Shown here piece after piece: positions 3,460 to 61,460 of a DNA stretch of 64,000 bases. Position 1 is the first letter of the stretch; the number at the start of each line of letters is the position of its first letter. Below the pieces are notes generated by a model. The model was given only the letters and a program-made list of their open reading frames with translations. It was not told the DNA's origin and ran no database searches. A program made the translations under genes and the position numbers. The DNA comes from Algimonas ampicilliniresistens (lineage in GTDB: Bacteria > Pseudomonadota > Alphaproteobacteria > Caulobacterales > Maricaulaceae). The DNA is taken from positions 1,116,001-1,180,000 of the forward strand of contig NZ_BSNK01000001.1 in NCBI RefSeq assembly GCF_030159955.1, written 5' to 3'.

Positions 3460-4911
3460 CTATGGCCAGGACGTAGACCCGGCGCGACGGCTTGATGGCG
3501 TAGATTGTTCAGAGGATGAAGTTACAGTGAAGGGCTTGCCGCGACGCTGATTTCGGCGTTTCTTGTCCAGCTGCGCTTCAGCGACGACGATAATGTCAGA
3601 CGCCCGTCGCCATTGTGGAATGTCGCGCGGTAAATCCTGCTGCGCCCGTCCAGCAAAGGAGCGCGCGGAGTCTAAGTCTCCCAACGAATAAAACCGCTCT
3701 GCCGATGCGTATTTGGCCAAGGCATCTTGATTCTGCTGACCATAGGCAAGCGACAAGAGATACCAGCCATGAGAGTAGCGTGGCTCAACTGTCAGCGCAG
3801 ATTTCAACAACGTGATGGCCCGTTCAACTTGTCTGTCTTCCTGCGTTTCAATGAGGGATTGGGACAGGGCAACTTTAAGAAGGATCGCATCGGGCTTTAG
3901 CTCTAAAGCGCGCTCGGCTGACGGCAGGGCCGCAGAACGCTGCCCGGATTCATAGAGAATTTGCGCCTTTAGCTCATGAAAGTAGGGGTTTTCGGGCTGT
4001 TCTTCGATCAGTGAATCGATCTCTTTGATGGCACTATTCATGTCAGCCGCGCGGAATAGAGCGACCGAGCGCGCATATCGCGCTGGCAGGCTTTTGTCGG
4101 TGAGCGGATAGCGATTGAAAACCATTTGTGGTGCGTCGAGGAAACCTCGCAGCTTAGCCTGCATCATGGTGTGGCGCTCTATGTCCTCGTCTGAGTCCAA
4201 TACGTCGACGAAGGGACTCTCAGCGACGCGCTCCCGCAACTTGTCGATCCGATTGGCTGAGAGGGGGTGAGAGCGGAAATATTCGTAACGACGGCTATAT
4301 GAGAGAACTTCTTGGACCCGGAAATTATCGAAGAAGTCGATGAGACCTTTGCCGGACTGCCCCGTCGTTTCGAGGAACTGGGCAGCGTATTGATCAGCGG
4401 ATGACTCATTGACCCGAGAATAAGCCAGGGCTTCGACCGCGCCAAATTGCTGCGCGCCGCCAAGAATCGCAGCACCAGCGGCACCTTCACCGGCCAAGAT
4501 CGCAGCCAGTCCAACACCTGCCGCCAGTAGCATGGCACCATAGGCTGAACGATTTCCATAATCGGATCGAACTATGTGACCGCCAACAATGTGTCCGGCC
4601 TCATGGGCGATCACACCCTTGAGTTCATTCGGCGTTTCCGCCTGCAAAATCAGGCCGCTATGTAAGAAAATGTTTTGCCCGCGGGTGACGAATGCGTTCA
4701 ATTCCGGATCATTGACGAGGTAGATGTCGACAGAGCGGGGGCTTAGACCACCCGCGCGGAGGAGGGGGTCACTGAATTCCCGAAGGGTCTCCTCAATCTC
4801 CGTATCGCGCAAGAGACCTTGCGCTTGGGACTGCGCGACCAACAGAGCCGCGATCATGAACCCGCCAAAAAGGCGAGCCATTAGAGTGGAGAATGTACGG
4901 GACGCAGTCAT
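3460..4911 (-). CDS. M48-family zinc metallopeptidase with TPR repeats (BepA-like)
   Basis: About 483 residues (492 if the upstream ATG at 4938 is used). An N-terminal signal peptide (around LFGGFMIAALLVAQSQAQ) is followed by an M48 domain with the zinc motif HEAGH in GVIAHEAGHIVGGHIV and a third-ligand glutamate region near ALAYSRVNESSADQYA. The C-terminal half contains tetratricopeptide-like helices (SARYSHGWYLLSLAYGQQNQDALAKYASAERFY region). This architecture matches periplasmic BepA/YfgC proteases, which assist or degrade outer-membrane proteins. Neither candidate start has a clear Shine-Dalgarno; 4911 was chosen because the signal peptide then starts close to the N-terminus. The gene precedes the DsbA-like lipoprotein gene on the same strand. 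Confidence 0.9.
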   Translation of the reverse strand: MTASRTFSTLMARLFGGFMIAALLVAQSQAQGLLRDTEIEETLREFSDPLLRAGGLSPRSVDIYLVNDPELNAFVTRGQNIFLHSGLILQAETPNELKGVIAHEAGHIVGGHIVRSDYGNRSAYGAMLLAAGVGLAAILAGEGAAGAAILGGAQQFGAVEALAYSRVNESSADQYAAQFLETTGQSGKGLIDFFDNFRVQEVLSYSRRYEYFRSHPLSANRIDKLRERVAESPFVDVLDSDEDIERHTMMQAKLRGFLDAPQMVFNRYPLTDKSLPARYARSVALFRAADMNSAIKEIDSLIEEQPENPYFHELKAQILYESGQRSAALPSAERALELKPDAILLKVALSQSLIETQEDRQVERAITLLKSALTVEPRYSHGWYLLSLAYGQQNQDALAKYASAERFYSLGDLDSARSFAGRAQQDLPRDIPQWRRASDIIVVAEAQLDKKRRNQRRGKPFTVTSSSEQSTPSSRRAGSTSWP

Positions 4912-48697: not shown

Positions 48698-50353
<1,656 letters not shown>

Positions 50354-50389
50354 CTAGATGTTGTTTTTAAGTGAGGGGAGCGGGTCGGT

Positions 50390-50677
50390 TTAACCGATGA
50401 CGCCCATAATGTCGGATTCCTTCATGATCAGCAGGTCTTTGCCGTCAATCTTGACTTCCGTGCCGCCCCATTTGCCAAACAGGACGCGGTCGCCCTTTTT
50501 GACGTCGAGCTTAGCAACACTGCCGTCTTCCTTGCGGATGCCGGGTCCAACTGCGACGACTTTGCCTTCAGATGGCTTTTCAGTGGCTGTATCGGGAATG
50601 ATGATGCCGCCGGCGGTCTTTGTGTCTTCTTTGACACGTTCAACGACTACGCGGTCGTGGAGGGGACGAAACTTCAT
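50390..50677 (-). CDS. groES: Co-chaperonin GroES
   Basis: 95 residues, [34 protein letters not shown] with mobile loop and dome region [33 protein letters not shown]. Caps the GroEL ring. First gene of the operon; a CIRCE element overlaps its upstream region. Confidence 0.99.
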
Positions 50678-50711
50678 GCGTCTTCTCTCTATTCGAGGTT
50701 GGTGATGTGAC

Positions 50712-50738
50712 TTGGCACTCCCAGACAGAGAGTGCCAA
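50712..50738. promoter_or_regulatory. CIRCE element (HrcA operator) of groESL
   Basis: TTGGCACTC (50712-50720), nine bases, GAGTGCCAA (50730-50738). This matches CIRCE (TTAGCACTC-N9-GAGTGCTAA) with a symmetrical A-to-G change in both arms. It is 35-61 nt upstream of groES. A candidate promoter just beyond it on the minus strand has TTGCGA and, 17 nt later, TACATG. HrcA repression of groESL is well known in alphaproteobacteria. Confidence 0.93.
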
Positions 50739-50888
50739 CGCAGCGCATGTATGAAGGGTGAGGGATTGTCGCAAGGGTTCCGGTGACGAAACTTTGCAAA
50801 ACTATTGCAAAAGCCGACGGGACCGTTTGAGACTTTCTAATTGCAGCCAGCCAGAGTCGTCACGCGATCCGCTGCCTAACGACTTTCC

Positions 50889-52761: not shown

Positions 52762-55650
52762 ATGTCTATTCGTTCTCTGCTTTTAACAACCACCGCTGCG
52801 GCGCTTTTGATGGCTTGTGGGCCTCAAGCCGTAGACACGGATGCGAACAAAGTTCGTGTCACGACCGAGACGACGGACGGTGACAAAGCGTCCAGCTTCA
52901 CGCTCGATTATGAGGCGTTCACGCTCGATAATGGGTTGCAGGTTTTCTTGCAGCGCGATGCGTCTGATCCGATTGTGGCGGTGTCCACCGTGATCCATGC
53001 GGGCTCATCGCGAGAGAAACCAGGCCGGACGGGTTTTGCGCATTTCTTCGAACATATGGCGTTTAACGATAGTGAGAATGTGCCGCGTGGCTGGAACCGG
53101 GGGCAGATCCCGAAATGGGGTGGATCGCGCAATGGCGGCACGTGGTCGGACGGGACGATCTATTACGAGACTGTGCCGAAGGATGCCTTCGATAAGATCC
53201 TTTGGATCGATAGTGACCGGCTTGGCTATATGATCAACACGGTGACGCCCGAAGCGCTGGAACGTGAAAAGCAGGTGGTAAAAAACGAAAAGCGCCAACG
53301 TTACGATAATGCAGCCTATGGCTACACAAATGAGGTGATCCGCGCCGCGCTCTATCCAGAAGACCACCCCTATAACTGGACCACGATTGGGGCCTTGCCG
53401 GATCTACAAGCCGCGACGCTCGACGATGTGCGCGAATTCTATGACCTTTGGTACGCGCCGAACAATGCGACGCTCGCCATTGTTGGCGATATCGATATTG
53501 AAGAGACCAAGGAAAAGGTGAAGCTCTGGTTTGGGGAAATTCCGCGTGGGCGCGATATTCCAGATCCTGTGCCACAGCCCGTCACCCTGACCGAGACGAA
53601 AAACCTTTGGTACGAAGATAACTTCGCCAAGCTCCCTGAATTACGCATGACTTTCCCGACCGTGGACGGGTCGAATTCCGAGCAATATGCGCTGGCAGTG
53701 TTGGGCGAAATGCTTGGTGGAAGCCGGACGTCGCCGCTCTATGTCGAGATTGTCGATGGCGCCAAACTCGCGCCCAATGTGTCGTCATACAATAGTTCGA
53801 GCGAGCTGGCGGGGACGTTCACCGTTCGGGTCCGGGCGAATGCCGGTGTTGATCTGGATGATGTCAAAGCGGCGGTTGAAACGGCGATGGCCCGTTTTGA
53901 AGCCGAGGGTATCGATGAACTGGCGCTCAAACGCGTCAAAGCCGGCCAGGAAACGGCGCTCTATGCCAGCCTGTCCACGGCACTGGGCAAAGCCAATTCC
54001 ATGGCGCGATTTAATGAGCTGCAAGGCGATCCAGCCTATCAGGTCAAATCCGCAGCGGCGATCCGCGCGGTGACGGCGGATCAAGTGATGGCGGCTTATG
54101 AGCGCCACATCAAAGACAAGCCCTATATCCTAACCAGCTTTGTTCCCAAAGGGCAGGCGGAGCTGGTAGTTGCGGGCGCAGAGCGTGCGACCGTCTGGAT
54201 CGAGGAAGTAAAAGCCGACGTGGCGTCCGAAGAGGTCAGTGCTGGAGACTTGGCCGATTTCGAAAAGACTGTGACCGTCCATGATCGCTCAGAGCCTGAG
54301 TTTGGCGAATTACCTTTGCTGAAAATGCCAGCGATTTGGACGCGAACATTGGCTAATGATGCCGTTGTGCGCGGGATTGAAACCAACGAAATTCCGCTCG
54401 TTCAGTTTGATATTACGCTCCCGGGTGGACGTTGGGCCGAAGACCCCGCGCAGAATGGCCGTTTTGCACTGCTCGCCGATCTGATGGAAGAAGGCACGGC
54501 AACCAAGACACCAGGCGAATTAGAGCAGGCGATTGGCATTCTCGGCGCCAGTATCAATGTATCAGCGGGATCAGAAGATTTGACCATCCGTGCGACCACG
54601 CTGGCTCGGAACTTCGAAGAGACTGTGGCGCTGGTGCAGGAAATCTTGACCGAGCCCCGCTGGCAGACTGAGGATTTCGACCGGGTGAAGTCGGCCCGGC
54701 TGACCGGCATCAAAGGTCGTGAAGCTAATCCGCAAGCGATTGCCGCTATGGCCTTCAATAGCTTGATTTATGGGAATACCCATCCACTCGGACGCCCGAG
54801 CGGTGGCAGCGAAGATAGCGTTTCAGCTCTCGAGCTGGATGACCTCAAGTCTGCGCATTCAGATTTGCTCACGGCAACGCCGCGCCTCCATGTAGCGGGC
54901 GACATTGACCCAGATAGGGCTGCGGCTGGACTGAGCACTCTGGCTGAAGCCGTTGCTCCAACAGGCGCGGATCGACCCGCTTACGACATCCCAACGCAGG
55001 ATAATGCAGGACGTGTGTTCTTCATTGATGTGCCCGGATCGAAACAATCGGTCTTGCGCATTGGGGCTTTGACCCCGGCCTCTAGCCATCCGGATTTTAA
55101 CAAGATCCAGTTCACCAATGAGAAGCTTGGCGGCGGCATCGCTGGTGATCTGGCGCAGATGCTGCGGATCGAGAAAGGCTACACCTATGGGGCCGGATCC
55201 TTCATTCCACGCGGGACCGTTGAGCGTCCCTTCACTATGAGTACAAGTGTTCGCGCCAATGCGACCCAGGCCTCGCTAGAGACCATCCGTGATATGGTTC
55301 TGGCTTATGGCGAGACGTTTGATGAAGTGGCCGTTGAAGCGACCCAGCAGAAGATCATCAAAGCTTCCGCGCGCGCGTTTGAAAGTCTAGGCGCGAAACT
55401 GGGCACGCTGAACGAGATCAGCCAATACGGCCTATCAGACCGCTATGTCGAAGAGGAACAAGCCGAGTTGGTTGCGATGACTGACGCCGACTTTAAGCGC
55501 ATTGCGACCGAATATATGGATGAGAGCAATTTCGTCTATGTCATCGTTGGCGACCGCGCGACCCAGCTTGAACCTGTGCAAGCATTTGCGGCGGAGACGG
55601 GCAAAGGCGAGGTGGTCGAGCTGGATATATTTGGCCAGCCCGTCGAGTAA
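52762..55650 (+). CDS. M16 (pitrilysin/insulinase) family metallopeptidase lipoprotein
   Basis: 962 residues. Lipobox LLMAC within the first 20 residues gives an envelope-anchored lipoprotein. The first M16 domain has the inverted zinc motif HFFEH (in GFAHFFEHMAFNDSENVPRG) and the distal Glu in EREKQVVKNEKRQ. The second half repeats the M16 fold (AILADLMEEGTATKTPGELEQA) but lacks HxxEH, as usual for the structural half. Two-lobed proteases of this kind digest peptides in the periplasm. Start 52762 (TGAGG upstream) was preferred over GTG 52753. Confidence 0.93.
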   Translation: MSIRSLLLTTTAAALLMACGPQAVDTDANKVRVTTETTDGDKASSFTLDYEAFTLDNGLQVFLQRDASDPIVAVSTVIHAGSSREKPGRTGFAHFFEHMAFNDSENVPRGWNRGQIPKWGGSRNGGTWSDGTIYYETVPKDAFDKILWIDSDRLGYMINTVTPEALEREKQVVKNEKRQRYDNAAYGYTNEVIRAALYPEDHPYNWTTIGALPDLQAATLDDVREFYDLWYAPNNATLAIVGDIDIEETKEKVKLWFGEIPRGRDIPDPVPQPVTLTETKNLWYEDNFAKLPELRMTFPTVDGSNSEQYALAVLGEMLGGSRTSPLYVEIVDGAKLAPNVSSYNSSSELAGTFTVRVRANAGVDLDDVKAAVETAMARFEAEGIDELALKRVKAGQETALYASLSTALGKANSMARFNELQGDPAYQVKSAAAIRAVTADQVMAAYERHIKDKPYILTSFVPKGQAELVVAGAERATVWIEEVKADVASEEVSAGDLADFEKTVTVHDRSEPEFGELPLLKMPAIWTRTLANDAVVRGIETNEIPLVQFDITLPGGRWAEDPAQNGRFALLADLMEEGTATKTPGELEQAIGILGASINVSAGSEDLTIRATTLARNFEETVALVQEILTEPRWQTEDFDRVKSARLTGIKGREANPQAIAAMAFNSLIYGNTHPLGRPSGGSEDSVSALELDDLKSAHSDLLTATPRLHVAGDIDPDRAAAGLSTLAEAVAPTGADRPAYDIPTQDNAGRVFFIDVPGSKQSVLRIGALTPASSHPDFNKIQFTNEKLGGGIAGDLAQMLRIEKGYTYGAGSFIPRGTVERPFTMSTSVRANATQASLETIRDMVLAYGETFDEVAVEATQQKIIKASARAFESLGAKLGTLNEISQYGLSDRYVEEEQAELVAMTDADFKRIATEYMDESNFVYVIVGDRATQLEPVQAFAAETGKGEVVELDIFGQPVE

Positions 55651-55677
55651 GGGCAGCTCAGTTAGGCTCAGTCAGGA

Positions 55678-56130
55678 TCAGCTCTTCGGAAGTTGATCCG
55701 GTCTGGGCGGCGTATTGCGCTTACAGTTTTCTGGCACGACGCCATGTTCGCCGAAGGATGAGAATTTTCCCTCCTCGGCCCGGTGATGGATTTGTAGGTT
55801 GAACAACACGCCCTTGAACGGCGGAAGCAGCAGCAGGATCACGCCGAGGCAGATGATCGACATAATCGTCATTGAAATCACAAAGCCGGTCGTAGTTTCG
55901 GGTAAAATCCCGGCGATCACGAAGGCTGGTGTGAAAACGATGAGGGCGAGAAAGCCGACGAAGAAAGCGGGGCCATCCGCTGTATCGGCGACGGAAAAGC
56001 TCTGACCGCAAATGTCGCACTCATCTTTGAACTTCAAATAAGCCCTGAACAGCTTACCTTGTCCGCAATTTCCACAGCGAAGTCGGATTCCTGTTTCGAT
56101 GGGGGAGCGACTTGAATAACGTCTGTTCAT
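55678..56130 (-). CDS. DUF983-family membrane protein
   Basis: 150 residues. Two CxxC pairs (RCGNCGQGKLF and ECDICGQ) form a likely zinc ribbon, followed by DGPAFFVGF and two TM helices (ALIVFTPAFVIAGIL, MTIMSIICLGVILLLL), then a cytoplasmic tail. This is the DUF983 layout; function unknown, sometimes near cytochrome oxidase genes, which are absent here. Faces the M16 gene with a 27-nt gap. Confidence 0.9.
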   Translation of the reverse strand: MNRRYSSRSPIETGIRLRCGNCGQGKLFRAYLKFKDECDICGQSFSVADTADGPAFFVGFLALIVFTPAFVIAGILPETTTGFVISMTIMSIICLGVILLLLPPFKGVLFNLQIHHRAEEGKFSSFGEHGVVPENCKRNTPPRPDQLPKS

Positions 56131-56248
56131 GATCCCGGCCTTCCATGGTCATGGTCTCACGGGACAATAGCCTCTTCGCGCTGTATGACAATGCAGGTAT
56201 AGGTCGCCGGGCCGATAGACTGCCTTGCAAAAATGCCGTGCGCGAGAC

Positions 56249-56677
56249 TTAACCGCCGCTTGTGATGAGTCGGGTGATCCAGACACCGCCGACGGCACAA
56301 CTCGCCGTTAGGACCGTGCCCCAGACGATGTCGACAAGAACCATTTTGATCGGCCAACCTTCCAAAGTTGCGAGATTGGTTAGGTCGTAGGTCGCATAAC
56401 AGAAGAAACCGAAAAGAGCCCCATACAGCGCGGCCTTGCCAAGGCTGCCGCCCGATAGGCCGTGGTGGCTGGCAAAGATCAGGATGCCAACAATGTAGAG
56501 CGCGTAAAACCCAACGGCGACACCCCAACGGATATTTTCCGCCATCAAGCTGCCGAGCTGTCCGGCGTAAAACGGCTTCGCGACCACCCCGAGCCAGACC
56601 ATATCGATCGCGAAGAAAACGAACAGGGTAGCAACATAACAAATGAGCCAAGTGGAGAGAGGGATGGTTTCGGTCAT
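56249..56677 (-). CDS. DUF2177-family membrane protein
   Basis: 142 residues with four TM helices (WLICYVATLFVFFAIDMVWLG, WGVAVGFYALYIVGILIF, AALYGALFGFFCYATYDLTNLA, VLVDIVWGTVLTASCAVGGVW). The IDMVWLG and YDLTNLATL blocks fit DUF2177. Function unknown. Start at 56677 was chosen because earlier codons run back through an unrelated stretch; no clear ribosome site is visible. Confidence 0.85.
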   Translation of the reverse strand: MTETIPLSTWLICYVATLFVFFAIDMVWLGVVAKPFYAGQLGSLMAENIRWGVAVGFYALYIVGILIFASHHGLSGGSLGKAALYGALFGFFCYATYDLTNLATLEGWPIKMVLVDIVWGTVLTASCAVGGVWITRLITSGG

Positions 56678-56726
56678 GCCGTAAATACGGGGCAGAGCGA
56701 CAAAAGGTTGCCTCACATGTTCTTTG

Positions 56727-57932
56727 CTACTCTCCGTGCAGCGCCGGATAGGTCCACCACCACGGGTAATTCGTTTCACCCAAGACCAAATTTACAATGT
56801 CCGGAAAGATGATTTCGGCGCGAACACTATTGGCCAGCATCACAAGGCAGCGCTGCTCAGCCTCCTGACAAATGACCATGTTGCCGGTCCAATCATTATG
56901 TCCGCCTTTGGCGAAGTTGAGACCGTTAGGTCCATCCCACGTCTCTAGGCCAAGCCCGGCGGACAGATTGATCATCTCGCTGCGCGGCTCATCCGTGGCA
57001 TTGTGTTCGATTGTCGGGAACTTTTGTTTTGACCGAATGGGCACTTGCCCGCGCACCCATTCTGCCCGCATCGACTCGGAGAGCCCTTCACCGGCCAGCA
57101 TACCCCGCCACATCCGTGCTTGATCCGCGATCGTCGTGTCCATCGACCCCGAAGCGCTGACATGGCTGCGTTCGTCATGTGGTTCGAATGATCCGTCCAT
57201 TGCGTAACCGTCTGCAAGGTTGTCGGCAAAGTCTGCACGCCACTGCATGTCCGTATTAGGCATAGCGAAGCGGTCAAATATGCGCGCTTGCATCTGTGCT
57301 TTCACATCAAGCCCGAGGCCTTTTTCGAGCATGAATTGCAAGAGGTAAAACCCTTCGCCGGAGTAAGCATAACGCTCGCCCGGCTTGAAATGGAATTTGA
57401 GATCCATGTCGGGCTCAAGGAATCTGAGATTGGCCAGACCCGTGGAATGGGTGAGGATGTGTCTCGGCGTTAAGTGCTGCCAGTCATCATCCCCCTGCAG
57501 CGACTGCCAGTCATCATAGGTGGGTAAGGGTTGGTCGAGATCATCGGAAAGGGGCCGATCGAGATCAACAATGCCTTCATCAACGAGCTGTAGGACCATG
57601 TAAGCGAAAGCCGCCTTGGTCAGAGACGCACCATACACGATCGTGTCGGTCTCAAGGAGCAGTGCGCGCTCGACATTTCTGAAGCCGTAAGCGCTAAGGT
57701 GCGTGATGTCAGACCCGTCAATCACAGCGACGGCTAGGCCTTTGACGTCTTCTTCCGCCATGAGCCGCATTATCTCTTTGTCGAGAGCAACGCTTTGAAG
57801 CGCCGGGCTCTGATCTTTGAGCGGAGGTTCGACCTGCAATGTGTCTGGAGATTCTGCACAGGCGACTGTTCCGATCGCAAGAACGAATATGAGCGTCGTT
57901 CGAATGATTGCGCTGAAGGGAGGTTTCGACAT
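56727..57932 (-). CDS. Class C beta-lactamase-like serine hydrolase, lipoprotein
   Basis: 401 residues. Signal with lipobox ending GTVAC (C25). SxxK is SLTK at 103-106 in VYGASLTKAAFAYMVLQ; the second motif is YSG at 190-192 (GERYAYSGEGFY) instead of YxN, and the third is KGGHNDWTG near 342-350. These fit penicillin-binding-protein-like (AmpC/EstB) hydrolases rather than a true beta-lactamase. Start 57932 follows the stop of the XRE regulator by 7 nt with AGGTC upstream, so the two form an operon. The natural substrate could be a peptidoglycan peptide or an ester; not resolvable here. Confidence 0.87.
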   Translation of the reverse strand: MSKPPFSAIIRTTLIFVLAIGTVACAESPDTLQVEPPLKDQSPALQSVALDKEIMRLMAEEDVKGLAVAVIDGSDITHLSAYGFRNVERALLLETDTIVYGASLTKAAFAYMVLQLVDEGIVDLDRPLSDDLDQPLPTYDDWQSLQGDDDWQHLTPRHILTHSTGLANLRFLEPDMDLKFHFKPGERYAYSGEGFYLLQFMLEKGLGLDVKAQMQARIFDRFAMPNTDMQWRADFADNLADGYAMDGSFEPHDERSHVSASGSMDTTIADQARMWRGMLAGEGLSESMRAEWVRGQVPIRSKQKFPTIEHNATDEPRSEMINLSAGLGLETWDGPNGLNFAKGGHNDWTGNMVICQEAEQRCLVMLANSVRAEIIFPDIVNLVLGETNYPWWWTYPALHGE

Positions 57933-57939
57933 GATTGAC

Positions 57940-58653
57940 CTATCTTTTTGAGGATTGCGGCCAACGCCAGCTGACAAAGAAGCAACCGAGGCCGCCCAGA
58001 ATGAACATAAATCCCGGCACGTTCGCCCATCCATACCGGTTCTTGGTTTTGACCTCCGTGCCACCGACCAACCGCCAGACCCGTTTCCCATCATCCAGGT
58101 TTTCGACGAAGGACGGGCCTTTGAATGTCTTGATCAATTGTGTCTGGTCATCGACTCGCGCGATGAGTGCGTCTCGCTTGGCGGTCTCAACCGCGTCGAG
58201 GTCCAGCTTGGCGTCCAAGTCTCCGAAAACATCCATACTCTCGCCGGGTAAGATGATGCCCGTTGACTGATAGGTAAACTGAACATCCGATTGAGCGGGC
58301 CCCAACCGCGTCAGGCCGAGGAGCGCACCACCGACGAAAAGAGCGCTGACCCCACTTAGCAGCCATTGGCGTGAGGCGGTCATGGTCTTGCCATTTTGAG
58401 TGAGGCGCGCCTGCCGTACAGTATCAATTCCGTCTAAACGATCCGCCTCTGCGGGCGATAAAGCTTGAAGCACGTCTGACGTCTCAAGATCATAGGCCGC
58501 GATGAGGCGCTGGAACATGTCATCAGATGGATAAGCTTTGCCCGTTTCGAGTTTTGACAGATAAGACTGTTCAATGCTGACTTTTGATGCGGCCTCCGGC
58601 TGGGTCCAGCCGAGGGTTCGTCTTCGCTCTCTTAGATACTCACCGAACTTCAT
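57940..58653 (-). CDS. Membrane-tethered XRE-family regulator
   Basis: 237 residues. An N-terminal XRE helix-turn-helix (residues 5-60, EYLRERRRTLGWTQPEAASKVSIEQSYLSKLETGKAYPS) is joined to two TM helices at about 97-117 and 212-229. The roughly 95 residues between them would be periplasmic (QFTYQSTGIILPGESMDVFGDLD to VWRLVGGTEVKT). It is thus a one-component transmembrane regulator, ToxR-like in layout but with an XRE domain. GGAGCAG precedes the start. It lies immediately upstream of the serine hydrolase gene on the same strand, which suggests it senses an envelope signal and controls the hydrolase. Confidence 0.85.
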   Translation of the reverse strand: MKFGEYLRERRRTLGWTQPEAASKVSIEQSYLSKLETGKAYPSDDMFQRLIAAYDLETSDVLQALSPAEADRLDGIDTVRQARLTQNGKTMTASRQWLLSGVSALFVGGALLGLTRLGPAQSDVQFTYQSTGIILPGESMDVFGDLDAKLDLDAVETAKRDALIARVDDQTQLIKTFKGPSFVENLDDGKRVWRLVGGTEVKTKNRYGWANVPGFMFILGGLGCFFVSWRWPQSSKR

Positions 58654-58710
58654 CGCACTGCTCCGTACATTGGCTTCAACTGTCAGTTCGAACGGTAAGA
58701 ACTCAATCTG

Positions 58711-58740
58711 AATATTGAGGAATATTGAGGAATATTGCGG
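58711..58740. repeat. Three 10-bp tandem repeats upstream of the XRE regulator
   Basis: AATATTGAGG occurs twice in a row and a third time as AATATTGCGG. The 10-bp period keeps each copy on the same helix face, 58-87 nt upstream of the XRE start. A flanking CTCAAT at 58703-58708 makes an inverted match to ATTGAG. Probable binding sites for the regulator, by inference. Confidence 0.65.
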
Positions 58741-58851
58741 GTCTCAGCTCTTTGCGTTGACATGTTCGATGTCCAACCGCTCAGATATCGATAGATTGAT
58801 ACAATGATGAGGGTGTTCAGGTGTGACGTATGGCTGGGCTTTATAGAAACA

Positions 58852-58870
58852 ATCTTGATGTGATCTTGAT
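58852..58870. repeat. Pair of ATCTTGAT direct repeats before the MBOAT gene
   Basis: ATCTTGAT at 58852-58859 and again at 58863-58870, 11 bp apart, in the 289-nt intergenic region, about 75-90 nt before the MBOAT start. Short, so possibly chance; noted as a possible operator. Confidence 0.35.
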
Positions 58871-58942
58871 AGAGAACTTTATCATATCAACACCGCGAAC
58901 ACTTGCCCGCCGCGCCGCGCCTGCTAAGGCGCGATCAATCCC

Positions 58943-60319
58943 ATGAACTTCGCGTCCGTCACATTTCTGTTCTTCTATTTGCCTGCGGTCGTGGCGCTCT
59001 ACTTTATCCTGCGCGGCCGTCAGTCCCGTAACGTGTTGCTGTTGGTAGCGAGCTTGTTCTTTTATGCGTGGGGCGAGGGGGCTGGGCTAGCGCTGCTGCT
59101 GATCTCGATCATGATGAACCACGAGTTCTCGCATCAGATCGCTCGCAATATGTATGAACAGCCGAAGCGTCGGCGCTGGTTGATCATCGGACTGACAGCC
59201 AATCTCGCACTACTGATCATTTTCAAATATCTGGGACTTATCACAGAGACCCTCGGTTTGCCGCGCATCGAAACCGCGCGACTGCCACTCGGGATTTCTT
59301 TCTTCACCTTCCAAGCAATGAGCTTGCTGATTGATGTGTCGCGGGGATCAAAACCTGCTACCAGCCCGCTTCGTACGGGCCTCTATATCAGCATGTTCCC
59401 GCAGCTGATTGCGGGGCCGATTGTGCGCTGGGACGAGATCAGAGAGCAGATCATCGCCCGCCAAGAAACGTGGGACCGGTTCTGCGACGGAACGCGGCTG
59501 TTTATGCTGGGGCTGGCCCAGAAGGTCTTGATCGCGGATACAGTCGCAAAAGTCGCAGACGCCGCTTTTGGTGCGGATGCTGCAACGTTGGGGCCAGCGG
59601 GCGCGTGGCTTGGGCTGGCCGCATTCACGCTGCAAATCTATTACGATTTTGCGGGCTATTCTAACATGGCGATTGGCTTGGGGCGGATATTCGGTTTCGA
59701 ATTGCCACGAAACTTTGAACATCCCTATAGTGCGGCCAGTTTCCGCGAGTTCTGGCGGCGTTGGCATATGACTTTGTCGCGTTGGTTCCGGGACTATCTT
59801 TATATCCCGCTCGGCGGATCTAGAGACGGCGCGACAGCCACCTATCGAAATCTGCTGATCGTTTTTGTCCTCTGCGGTCTGTGGCATGGTGCGGCTTGGA
59901 CCTTCCTATTCTGGGGGCTGTGGCACGGCGCGTTCTTGATCGCGGAGCGTGTCGGCGCACAACGCGGTTTCCCTAAATTGCCCCGCATTGTTGGTGTTGC
60001 TTACACAGTGCTGTTCGTCGCGCTTGGCTGGGTCCTGTTCCGCGCTGACAGTCTTGGCCATGCGCTTGCTTATTGGGGCGCGCTGATCCCCGGGGGCGAG
60101 GCCGGAACGACTATCGAGGTGCCCCCAACCGCGGCTTATGCGATGATCGTTGGGGCGCTACTTGCATGGGACGGCTGGAAACGTGTTGGTGAGCGTCTTC
60201 CAACGCCCGCAGCCGTTGGCACGGCGACGAGCTGGGCCATGATCGGGCTGCTTACGATCGTGTGTTTCGCAGCTGTGGCCTCGACGACGCACCAGCCTTT
60301 CCTTTACTTTCGGTTCTGA
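58943..60319 (+). CDS. MBOAT-family O-acyltransferase (AlgI-like)
   Basis: 458 residues, about ten or more TM helices. The invariant MBOAT His is H315 in CGLWHGAAWTF, with WRRWHMTLSRWFRDYLYIPLGG as the second hallmark (H275). Such proteins pass acetyl groups across the inner membrane for O-acetylation of alginate, cellulose or other exopolysaccharides. The next gene, 1 nt downstream, encodes an AlgJ-like SGNH protein, the periplasmic partner. The polysaccharide itself is not identifiable as no synthase gene is in the window. Confidence 0.92.
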   Translation: MNFASVTFLFFYLPAVVALYFILRGRQSRNVLLLVASLFFYAWGEGAGLALLLISIMMNHEFSHQIARNMYEQPKRRRWLIIGLTANLALLIIFKYLGLITETLGLPRIETARLPLGISFFTFQAMSLLIDVSRGSKPATSPLRTGLYISMFPQLIAGPIVRWDEIREQIIARQETWDRFCDGTRLFMLGLAQKVLIADTVAKVADAAFGADAATLGPAGAWLGLAAFTLQIYYDFAGYSNMAIGLGRIFGFELPRNFEHPYSAASFREFWRRWHMTLSRWFRDYLYIPLGGSRDGATATYRNLLIVFVLCGLWHGAAWTFLFWGLWHGAFLIAERVGAQRGFPKLPRIVGVAYTVLFVALGWVLFRADSLGHALAYWGALIPGGEAGTTIEVPPTAAYAMIVGALLAWDGWKRVGERLPTPAAVGTATSWAMIGLLTIVCFAAVASTTHQPFLYFRF

Positions 60320-60320
60320 C

Positions 60321-61460
60321 ATGTCGCGTCTGATCCGAAATATCGCCGTCGCTTGTCTGCTGGTCGCCTTTCTCGTCCCCTCGGTCGGGTTTGCCGTCAA
60401 TTTTGTGCGCGGTTTGGACGACACTAGCGTGACCGAAAAGCGCAGGTTGGCCTCGCTGCCAGCTTATGAAGGCGATGCGCGGGCCTATACGACGGCCCTC
60501 GATGATTATCTGGAAGATCATTTTGCGTTTCGGATGACCATGATCCGGGTCGCGCGGAAGATCCGCGATAATCTCGGCGAGAATCCAAAGAATGTTGTTT
60601 ACGGCAAGGATGGCTGGCTCTTCCTTGGCCAGATCGAATATCGCGATGAGTTTGAAGGCAATGGTCTCTGGGACCAAAGACAAGTCGAAAACTGGGTCTC
60701 GTCTCTCACAGAGGTGAATGCGGCGTTGGCGGATCGGAACATTCCGTTCGCAGCGTTTATCGCTGTCGATAAAGCGCGCGCCTATCCAGAGAAATTGCCG
60801 GATGATTGGACGGAAGCTCCACGGCGCTTCCGCTCGGCGGTATATTCGCATCCGGATGTCGATCAGACCGGGCTGATCGATGCAGAGCCGTTGGTCATGT
60901 CCGCCAAAGAGCGCGGGCATCTCGTCTTTTTCCTTCGCGACACCCATTGGACGGCGGCCGGAACTTATGAATTGGCGTTGGAAATTCTGGAAAAGTTAGA
61001 TCCGAACCAAAGGCGTTTGATCTATATTCCAGAGCCCGCCGTGGAGCAGCGCGCCGGTCGGGTCTATGATCTTGATGCGATGGCAGGGTTTGAGACGACC
61101 CAAGAACCGCCTTACACCATGATTAAATATCCGCCGTCGCGACCCAACGTCCGTACGGTGATGCATTTTAACGAGGATGGCACGGCCGTTCGCGGGCGCA
61201 TGTCGACCTTGATGATCCTTGGCACTGAAGATGCGACCAAAGGGCGATTAGTGATCGTCGGTGATAGTTTTGGTGACTCCATGCTGGGTCATTTGCGCCG
61301 TAGCTATTCCGAAATCGTGCGTATCCACCACGGCGCGCACTTTTTTGACATCGGTCTGGATGAGGTGTTGTCCTACGAACCCGATGCCGTTTTATTCGCG
61401 ACAGCTGAACGACAGGCCGCGCGTAAGGCTCGGCCATTTTTGCCGTTGAACCCCGAGTAG
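60321..61460 (+). CDS. AlgJ/AlgX-like SGNH acetyltransferase-domain protein
   Basis: 379 residues. N-terminal TM/signal anchor (IAVACLLVAFLVPSVGFAV), then the AlgJ/AlgX hydrolase-like fold with GKDGWLFLG, the DxH dyad D207/H209 in RDTHWTAAGTY, and the nucleophilic Ser316 in VIVGDSFGDSML. It should receive acetyl from the MBOAT partner and transfer it to a surface polysaccharide. Starts one base after the MBOAT stop. Confidence 0.9.
   Translation: MSRLIRNIAVACLLVAFLVPSVGFAVNFVRGLDDTSVTEKRRLASLPAYEGDARAYTTALDDYLEDHFAFRMTMIRVARKIRDNLGENPKNVVYGKDGWLFLGQIEYRDEFEGNGLWDQRQVENWVSSLTEVNAALADRNIPFAAFIAVDKARAYPEKLPDDWTEAPRRFRSAVYSHPDVDQTGLIDAEPLVMSAKERGHLVFFLRDTHWTAAGTYELALEILEKLDPNQRRLIYIPEPAVEQRAGRVYDLDAMAGFETTQEPPYTMIKYPPSRPNVRTVMHFNEDGTAVRGRMSTLMILGTEDATKGRLVIVGDSFGDSMLGHLRRSYSEIVRIHHGAHFFDIGLDEVLSYEPDAVLFATAERQAARKARPFLPLNPE

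Follow-up and report, generated by a model that had tools for sequence, protein, structure and literature searches.

A putative membrane-tethered XRE regulator and a phased ATTC-box array at its own promoter in Algimonas ampicilliniresistens and related alphaproteobacteria

BcrR, the bacitracin sensor of Enterococcus, has an N-terminal domain of the XRE type. It is a one-component regulator located permanently in the membrane, and its gene lies directly upstream of its target operon (PMC3968067, PMC13384398). As the cited passages describe it, BcrR has four membrane helices and no obvious extracellular domain, targets an ABC transporter, and belongs to a separate transcription unit (PMC3968067, PMC13384398). 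Transmembrane transcription regulators are an established class, and how a membrane-fixed transcription factor finds and reads its DNA site is described as poorly understood (PMC10269533). ToxR and CadC join a cytoplasmic winged-helix domain, through one membrane helix, to a periplasmic domain (PMC7496328, PMC5430869), and at ompU ToxR recognizes direct repeats with a 10-bp spacing (PMC7496328). CoxC, an alphaproteobacterial membrane-tethered repressor with a LytTR DNA-binding domain and a seven-helix MHYT sensor, uses three direct repeats over the −35, and those of the related RcoM1 are spaced by 12–13 bp (PMC11347149). HigX of Caulobacter is an alphaproteobacterial membrane transcription factor linked to envelope genes; it is a LytTR protein with four helices, no periplasmic domain apparent in the cited account, an inverted-repeat motif, and many ChIP peaks (PMC13384398).

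We analyzed a stretch of 64,000 nucleotides from the genome of A. ampicilliniresistens (contig NZ_BSNK01000001.1, positions 1,116,001 to 1,180,000), referred to here as the window. It contains a regulator gene, a hydrolase gene behind it, and a phased array of repeats in front of it (Table 1), all described correctly in coordinates and content by the initial annotation. BcrR may be regarded as the closest known system in idea. Unlike BcrR, the window regulator has two hydrophobic segments separated by about 95 residues, and its presumed site is its own promoter, which has a phased array of direct repeats. Its presumed layout, and the 10-bp spacing of its repeats, recall ToxR and CadC, but the likeness does not extend to the winged helix: no winged-helix family is present among the 25 Pfam families listed for 34 members of the regulator family. 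It would share membrane tethering and three direct repeats near the −35 with CoxC, and a link to the envelope with HigX, but its XRE domain differs from the LytTR domain of both. No XRE protein of such a layout was found among the matches listed in open-licence papers. What is new, then, is the regulator family, its operator, and the partnership; the principle is already known.

Table 1. Features of the regulator locus, in positions of the window
Feature	Position	Strand	Basis
PF00144 serine hydrolase, 401 aa, SLTK motif, probable lipoprotein	56727..57932	minus	Pfam and motif; export and lipid anchor presumed
XRE-2TM regulator gene, 237 aa	57940..58653	minus	ORF list, HTH_31/HTH_3 matches, 34-row family alignment
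Hydrophobic segment 2, residues 210-228, then short tail; borderline here	57970..58026	minus	Hydropathy
Presumed periplasmic region, residues 116-209	58027..58308	minus	Membrane side inferred
Hydrophobic segment 1, residues 97-115	58309..58365	minus	Hydropathy
XRE helix-turn-helix domain, residues 3-58	58480..58647	minus	Pfam match and family alignment
Possible promoter: TTGAGT (58701-58706), 17 bp, weak −10 (58678-58683)	58678..58706	minus	By eye from conserved columns
Degenerate fourth box AGTTCT, weak in the window copy	58698..58703	minus	Family alignment
Three phased TATTC(C/A) boxes, 10 bp apart, main part of presumed operator	58709..58734	minus	Sequence and family array

The XRE domain of the regulator matches HTH_31 at 48.8 bits against a cut-off of 27. 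HTH_3 and HTH_19 also score above their cut-offs, and HTH_25 falls below its own (22.5 versus 24.6 bits). The open reading frame and the HTH_31 match agree with the earlier description of a 237-residue protein with an N-terminal XRE domain. In an alignment of 34 family members, 20 positions are invariant, 16 of them within residues 1–43, and the stretch IEQSYLS in the XRE domain is identical in every row. The interrupted copies L071 and L082 were excluded from this alignment and from the regulator tree. Kyte-Doolittle means are 1.73 for the first hydrophobic segment and 1.60 for the second. The two transmembrane helices and the loop of about 95 residues proposed at the outset thus correspond, by hydropathy, to two hydrophobic segments with 94 residues between them. 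Two segments are present in 30 of 36 family copies at a cut of 1.6; the window copy is among the six below it, with its second segment just under 1.6, and two others of the six are truncated. The region between the segments matches no convincing Pfam family; besides the helix-turn-helix, there are scattered weak matches in 1–4 of the 34 members. A DNA-binding domain and membrane segments are therefore combined in one polypeptide (HTH_31 and hydropathy), as in transmembrane transcription regulators. The XRE domain would be cytoplasmic, with the two helices in the inner membrane and the loop facing the periplasm. The initial annotation called this topology unusual and recognized no named system. 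Such a layout is indeed uncommon; it is not unprecedented, membrane-bound regulators being a known class in the account cited (PMC10269533).

Searches used an alignment of six regulator homologues (A1). Of the 138 genomes in the taxonomic family, 20 had a match. An order-level sample (the first order) gave matches in at least 29 of 399 genomes, one of them, G824, to the helix-turn-helix only. A class-wide sample gave at least 1 of 385, the window's own genome standing alone among the matches listed. The order and class-wide counts are lower bounds, as up to seven candidates per genome were scored. A wider alignment (A3) found the regulator in 19 of 196 genomes sampled from a second order, that of a Kordiimonadales genome. 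Within the window's genus, 2 of 19 genomes carry it. Locus L066 duplicates L019, and L114, which matches the helix-turn-helix only (24 bits versus 27), counts as a miss among the 35 first-order loci yet is within the 29 genomes of the order. A plasmid search returned one match to the regulator, covering residues 3–88 only, and a phage search returned no match. Some genomes of the second order have paired regulator genes close together (L018, 4968–9210; L177, 5894–7552; L020, 4968–6447).

On the coding strand, the repeats upstream of the regulator ATG read CAATATTCCT CAATATTCCT CAATATTCAG, with three CAATATTC units 10 bp apart. They lie 58–87 nt upstream of the gene, where three tandem 10-bp repeats had been noted. 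A search of the whole genome for further tandem sites, as the initial annotation had proposed, found a two-unit pattern with up to three mismatches only at this locus (two overlapping matches; reversed control, 0). An Rfam scan of positions 55000–60000 gave nothing at the gathering threshold. The array was then compared across relatives in two sets of upstream regions. The first comprises 34 regions of 150 bp and is not purely first-order, since four are from Kordiimonadales (L018 twice, L020 twice); the second comprises 19 regulator genes from 18 further second-order genomes and is independent of the motif definition. L114 was excluded from all operator counts. The first set contains 125 ATTC occurrences, and their pairwise spacings fall into a ladder: 70 pairs at 9–11 bp, 53 at 20–21 bp, 35 at 30–31 bp, and 16 at 40–41 bp, with zero at 14–18 bp. 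In 200 dinucleotide shuffles of this set, about 0.2 pairs occur per spacing. The second set gives 37 pairs at 10–11 bp and 34 at 19–21 bp, against about 0.14 per spacing in shuffles, and again no pairs at 14–18 bp. Spacings of 24 and 42 bp are also slightly above the shuffles.

Individual arrays were evaluated by box-chain scores because chains of three or more boxes arise in 24–32% of shuffles. For 36 of the 38 regions in the first set and 18 of the 19 in the second, no more than 2 of 200 shuffles reach the observed score. In the other three regions the arrays are weak: the number of shuffles scoring as high is 10 for the second L020 gene, 7 for L084, and 19 for the first L177 gene. Alignment of the regions yields the operator core nATTCC-n4-TATTCC-n4-TATTCA-n5-A(T/G)TCC; this alignment is anchored on the best consensus match, which favors conservation at the anchor columns, and the spacing test is anchor-free. 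The three repeats of the window are the visible part of this conserved ATTC-box array with a spacing of 10–11 bp. The repeat, whose absence upstream of relatives' genes had been named as counting against the original proposal, is conserved in the first set and at the new second-order loci. The array is mostly present whether or not a PF00144 gene follows the regulator. The interrupted regulator copies L071 and L082 are also preceded by it.

We scanned 20 genomes (14 with the regulator and 6 lacking it) with a sequence model of the array, scoring up to 150 candidates per genome. In all 14 carriers, the best match is the regulator's promoter (E 4e-7 to 0.02), a score that is partly by construction, since those loci or their close relatives supplied the sequences for the model. 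The six non-carriers have no match below E 0.07. In the window genome, the second-best match has an E of 0.7. Genome G016 has seven further matches, two of them at E 0.0023 and 0.049, and the former scores better than the promoter match of carrier G493 (E 0.02); these two sites are both within genes and were treated as chance. An exact three-box pattern, searched in 22 genomes, picked out the regulator's promoter in 10 of the 17 carriers; nine scattered matches fell elsewhere, versus 13 for a reversed control pattern. It had no match in the five non-carriers. One match away from the promoter in the window genome is inside a gene and was likewise attributed to chance. Within the sensitivity of these scans, the regulator's own promoter is the sole recognizable site per genome. 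Such a short, strongly conserved phased array at one recognizable place would make the geometry of recognition directly testable.

The hydrolase scores 113 bits with PF00144 against a cut-off of 27 and has the SxxK motif as SLTK. Its ATG at 57932 is 7 nt past the regulator stop, the spacing at which a class-C-type serine hydrolase gene had been placed. A lipobox had been claimed as well; the N-terminus does end in ...GTVAC, but we judge this to be a permissive rather than a textbook lipobox. The enzyme is probably exported via this N-terminus and lipid-modified. By sequence, it shares the PF00144 fold family with AmpH, LACTB, and EstB-like esterases. None of 21 NCBIfam models listed for it reaches its cut-off. 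A relative on a Sphingomonas daechungensis plasmid (NZ_CP060781.1) is 42% identical over 98% of its length.

The initial annotation suggested comparing the adjacency of the two genes across relatives and named its absence as counting against the proposal. The adjacency is conserved in the first order: in 23 of the 35 loci there, the regulator is followed immediately, on the same strand, by a PF00144 gene. Two others (L069, by Pfam, and L070, 81% identical to it) have an M28 peptidase with a signal-like N-terminus in this place. The regulator is beside a TRCF gene in L075 (by Pfam) and in L072 and L073 (about 90% identical), and L019/L066 has a PF00144 gene nearby on the opposite strand. The remaining first-order misses are the interrupted L071 and L082, the distant copies L083 and L084, the truncated L085, and L114. 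The second order has no PF00144 gene directly downstream in any of 23 loci (0 of 19, plus 0 of 4 for L018 and L020, one contig there being cut off within a regulator copy). Instead, 12 of the 19 loci have a LysR gene in the same orientation within 205 bp behind the regulator; Pfam confirms 8 of these 12. Another regulator is thus the usual neighbor there (L166, L169, L171–L178, L180, and L181). Of the pairing originally proposed, the co-directional envelope hydrolase and the array at the regulator's own promoter stand; the hydrolase as an obligatory partner does not, with 12 of 35 first-order and 23 of 23 second-order loci lacking it.

The serine and lysine of SxxK are conserved in each of the 23 adjacent enzymes, as is the tyrosine at position 190, which is followed by variable residues (YSN, YSG, YTN, and others). 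Inspection of the sequences and tree gave four named groups, with localizations judged by eye: the window type (14), a larger type of 429–516 aa (5), a second lipoprotein-like type (2), and one with an N-terminal hydrophobic anchor (2). One genus-level group (g304) accounts for 11 of the 14 window-type rows and thereby for 11 of the 23 positive loci; these are non-independent. In a quick tree with long branches, built from the 23 adjacent enzymes and 48 background PF00144 sequences, forcing the adjacent enzymes into one clade lowers the log-likelihood by 207 units (AU p = 9.5e-9), and strongly supported branches force at least three changes. In the regulator tree, the enzyme labels cluster, but L068, which has the window-type enzyme, lies with L067 and L112, whose enzymes are of another type. 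Because the adjacent hydrolases are not one clade, the PF00144 fold was paired with the regulator more than once. This repeated pairing offers a handle on the many uncharacterized hydrolases of this fold in alphaproteobacteria.

These data suggest a mechanism in which the cytoplasmic XRE domain would hang from the inner membrane by two helices, leaving the region of about 95 residues in the periplasm. Several copies would bind side by side to ATTC boxes one helical turn apart, at sites that all face the membrane and that adjoin and overlap the −35 of the regulator's promoter. The regulator would control its own gene and the next gene of the same operon, here the exported PF00144 hydrolase, and a periplasmic signal would relieve autorepression. 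We infer binding by the regulator itself, the operon, and the promoter position, and the one-turn spacing would fit a protein that approaches DNA from one side only. Read by eye, a weak putative −35 overlaps the fourth box, with a −10 about 17 bp further. Were this placement right, the array would begin near −60 and reach or enter the promoter, and in the f4 group of genomes the start codon would fall on the transcription start. In L102–L111 and L113, 17–18 bp separate the end of the box chain from the chosen start codon, a distance that would be compatible with a leaderless transcript. Leaving the sign of control aside, an autoregulated membrane-tethered one-component regulator of this kind, acting on a same-face operator, is the probable explanation. 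A point against it is that the regulators of L072, L073, and L075 have no partner enzyme, and a site at their own promoter only would then be of no obvious use.

The sign of control is the main matter on which readings diverge. The regulator might be an activator like ToxR and CadC, with boxes at about −40, −50, and −60 aiding RNA polymerase. The boxes upstream of and up to the putative −35 are in helical register, which would suit activation as in ToxR, whose direct-repeat boxes at ompU span −51 to −37 (PMC7496328). However, the fourth box, and in some loci a fifth, is inside the putative promoter spacer, a position that favors repression, and CoxC, with its three direct repeats over the −35, is described as a repressor (PMC11347149). 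We consider activation plausible without expecting it; it shares the core of the explanation above, so the chances of the two overlap. Of the two, we slightly favor autorepression released by a periplasmic signal. A bolder extension, which we regard as rather doubtful, is that the system is a portable membrane clamp acting on itself only. Membrane-hung domains would force a one-face array, insertion near its own gene would make other sites needless, and envelope hydrolases or a second regulator would repeatedly have been placed behind the switch.

Four other readings were weighed. RodZ consists of an HTH_25 domain and one membrane helix, and so also couples a helix-turn-helix of the same superfamily to the membrane. 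An HTH_25 match is present in the window regulator, but it lies below its cut-off, the hydrophobic segments number two, and a conserved DNA array precedes the gene. The protein falls outside the definition of RodZ, and a mainly structural or shape role, with a helix-turn-helix that does not serve gene control, is unlikely. Hardly more credible is a beta-lactam resistance pair, in which the regulator would sense the drug or wall fragments and the hydrolase would be a beta-lactamase. The fold family is shared with AmpC, but the class C beta-lactamase NCBIfam model gives 28.7 bits versus a cut-off of 415, and the enzyme has YSG here, with YSN or YTN in many neighbors. One-component membrane sensing of a wall antibiotic is itself known from BcrR (PMC3968067). 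The adjacency of the two genes could also be accidental, given the abundance of PF00144 genes (6–22 matches per genome in five first-order genomes and 19 in the window genome), their absence behind the second-order regulators, and the weight of one genus-level group among the positives. At such numbers, the chance of adjacency per gene is below 1%, assuming about 3,000 genes, and the same-strand pairing in 23 of 35 first-order loci, with enzymes that are not one clade, makes coincidence very improbable. XRE proteins are common as antitoxins, and the XRE domain scores with PADLOC models of the HTH and related types (capH, 38.6 bits), as expected if the pair were a toxin-antitoxin or defence module with the hydrolase as toxin. 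We give this reading scarcely any credence, as the hydrolase has no PADLOC match at E 0.01 and appears to be exported, and regulators without a PF00144 neighbor exist.

The wider surroundings of the locus vary within the genus. Base composition gives no sign of a recent import of the regulator-hydrolase pair, whose GC and third-position GC resemble those of neighboring genes. In two congeners (L254 and L255), both flanks match those of the window, and cytochrome bd oxidase subunits I and II replace the regulator and hydrolase. A third (L256) matches on the MBOAT side, has the oxidase genes next, and joins on its other side sequence matching window positions 48699–50801. The oxidase genes beside the MBOAT gene are at 3950–6412 in L254, 4187–6646 in L255, and 4023–6538 in L256. 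In the window, the MBOAT acyltransferase gene and an AlgX-like gene form a pair at 58943–61460, which we take to be an O-acetylation pair, oriented away from the regulator.
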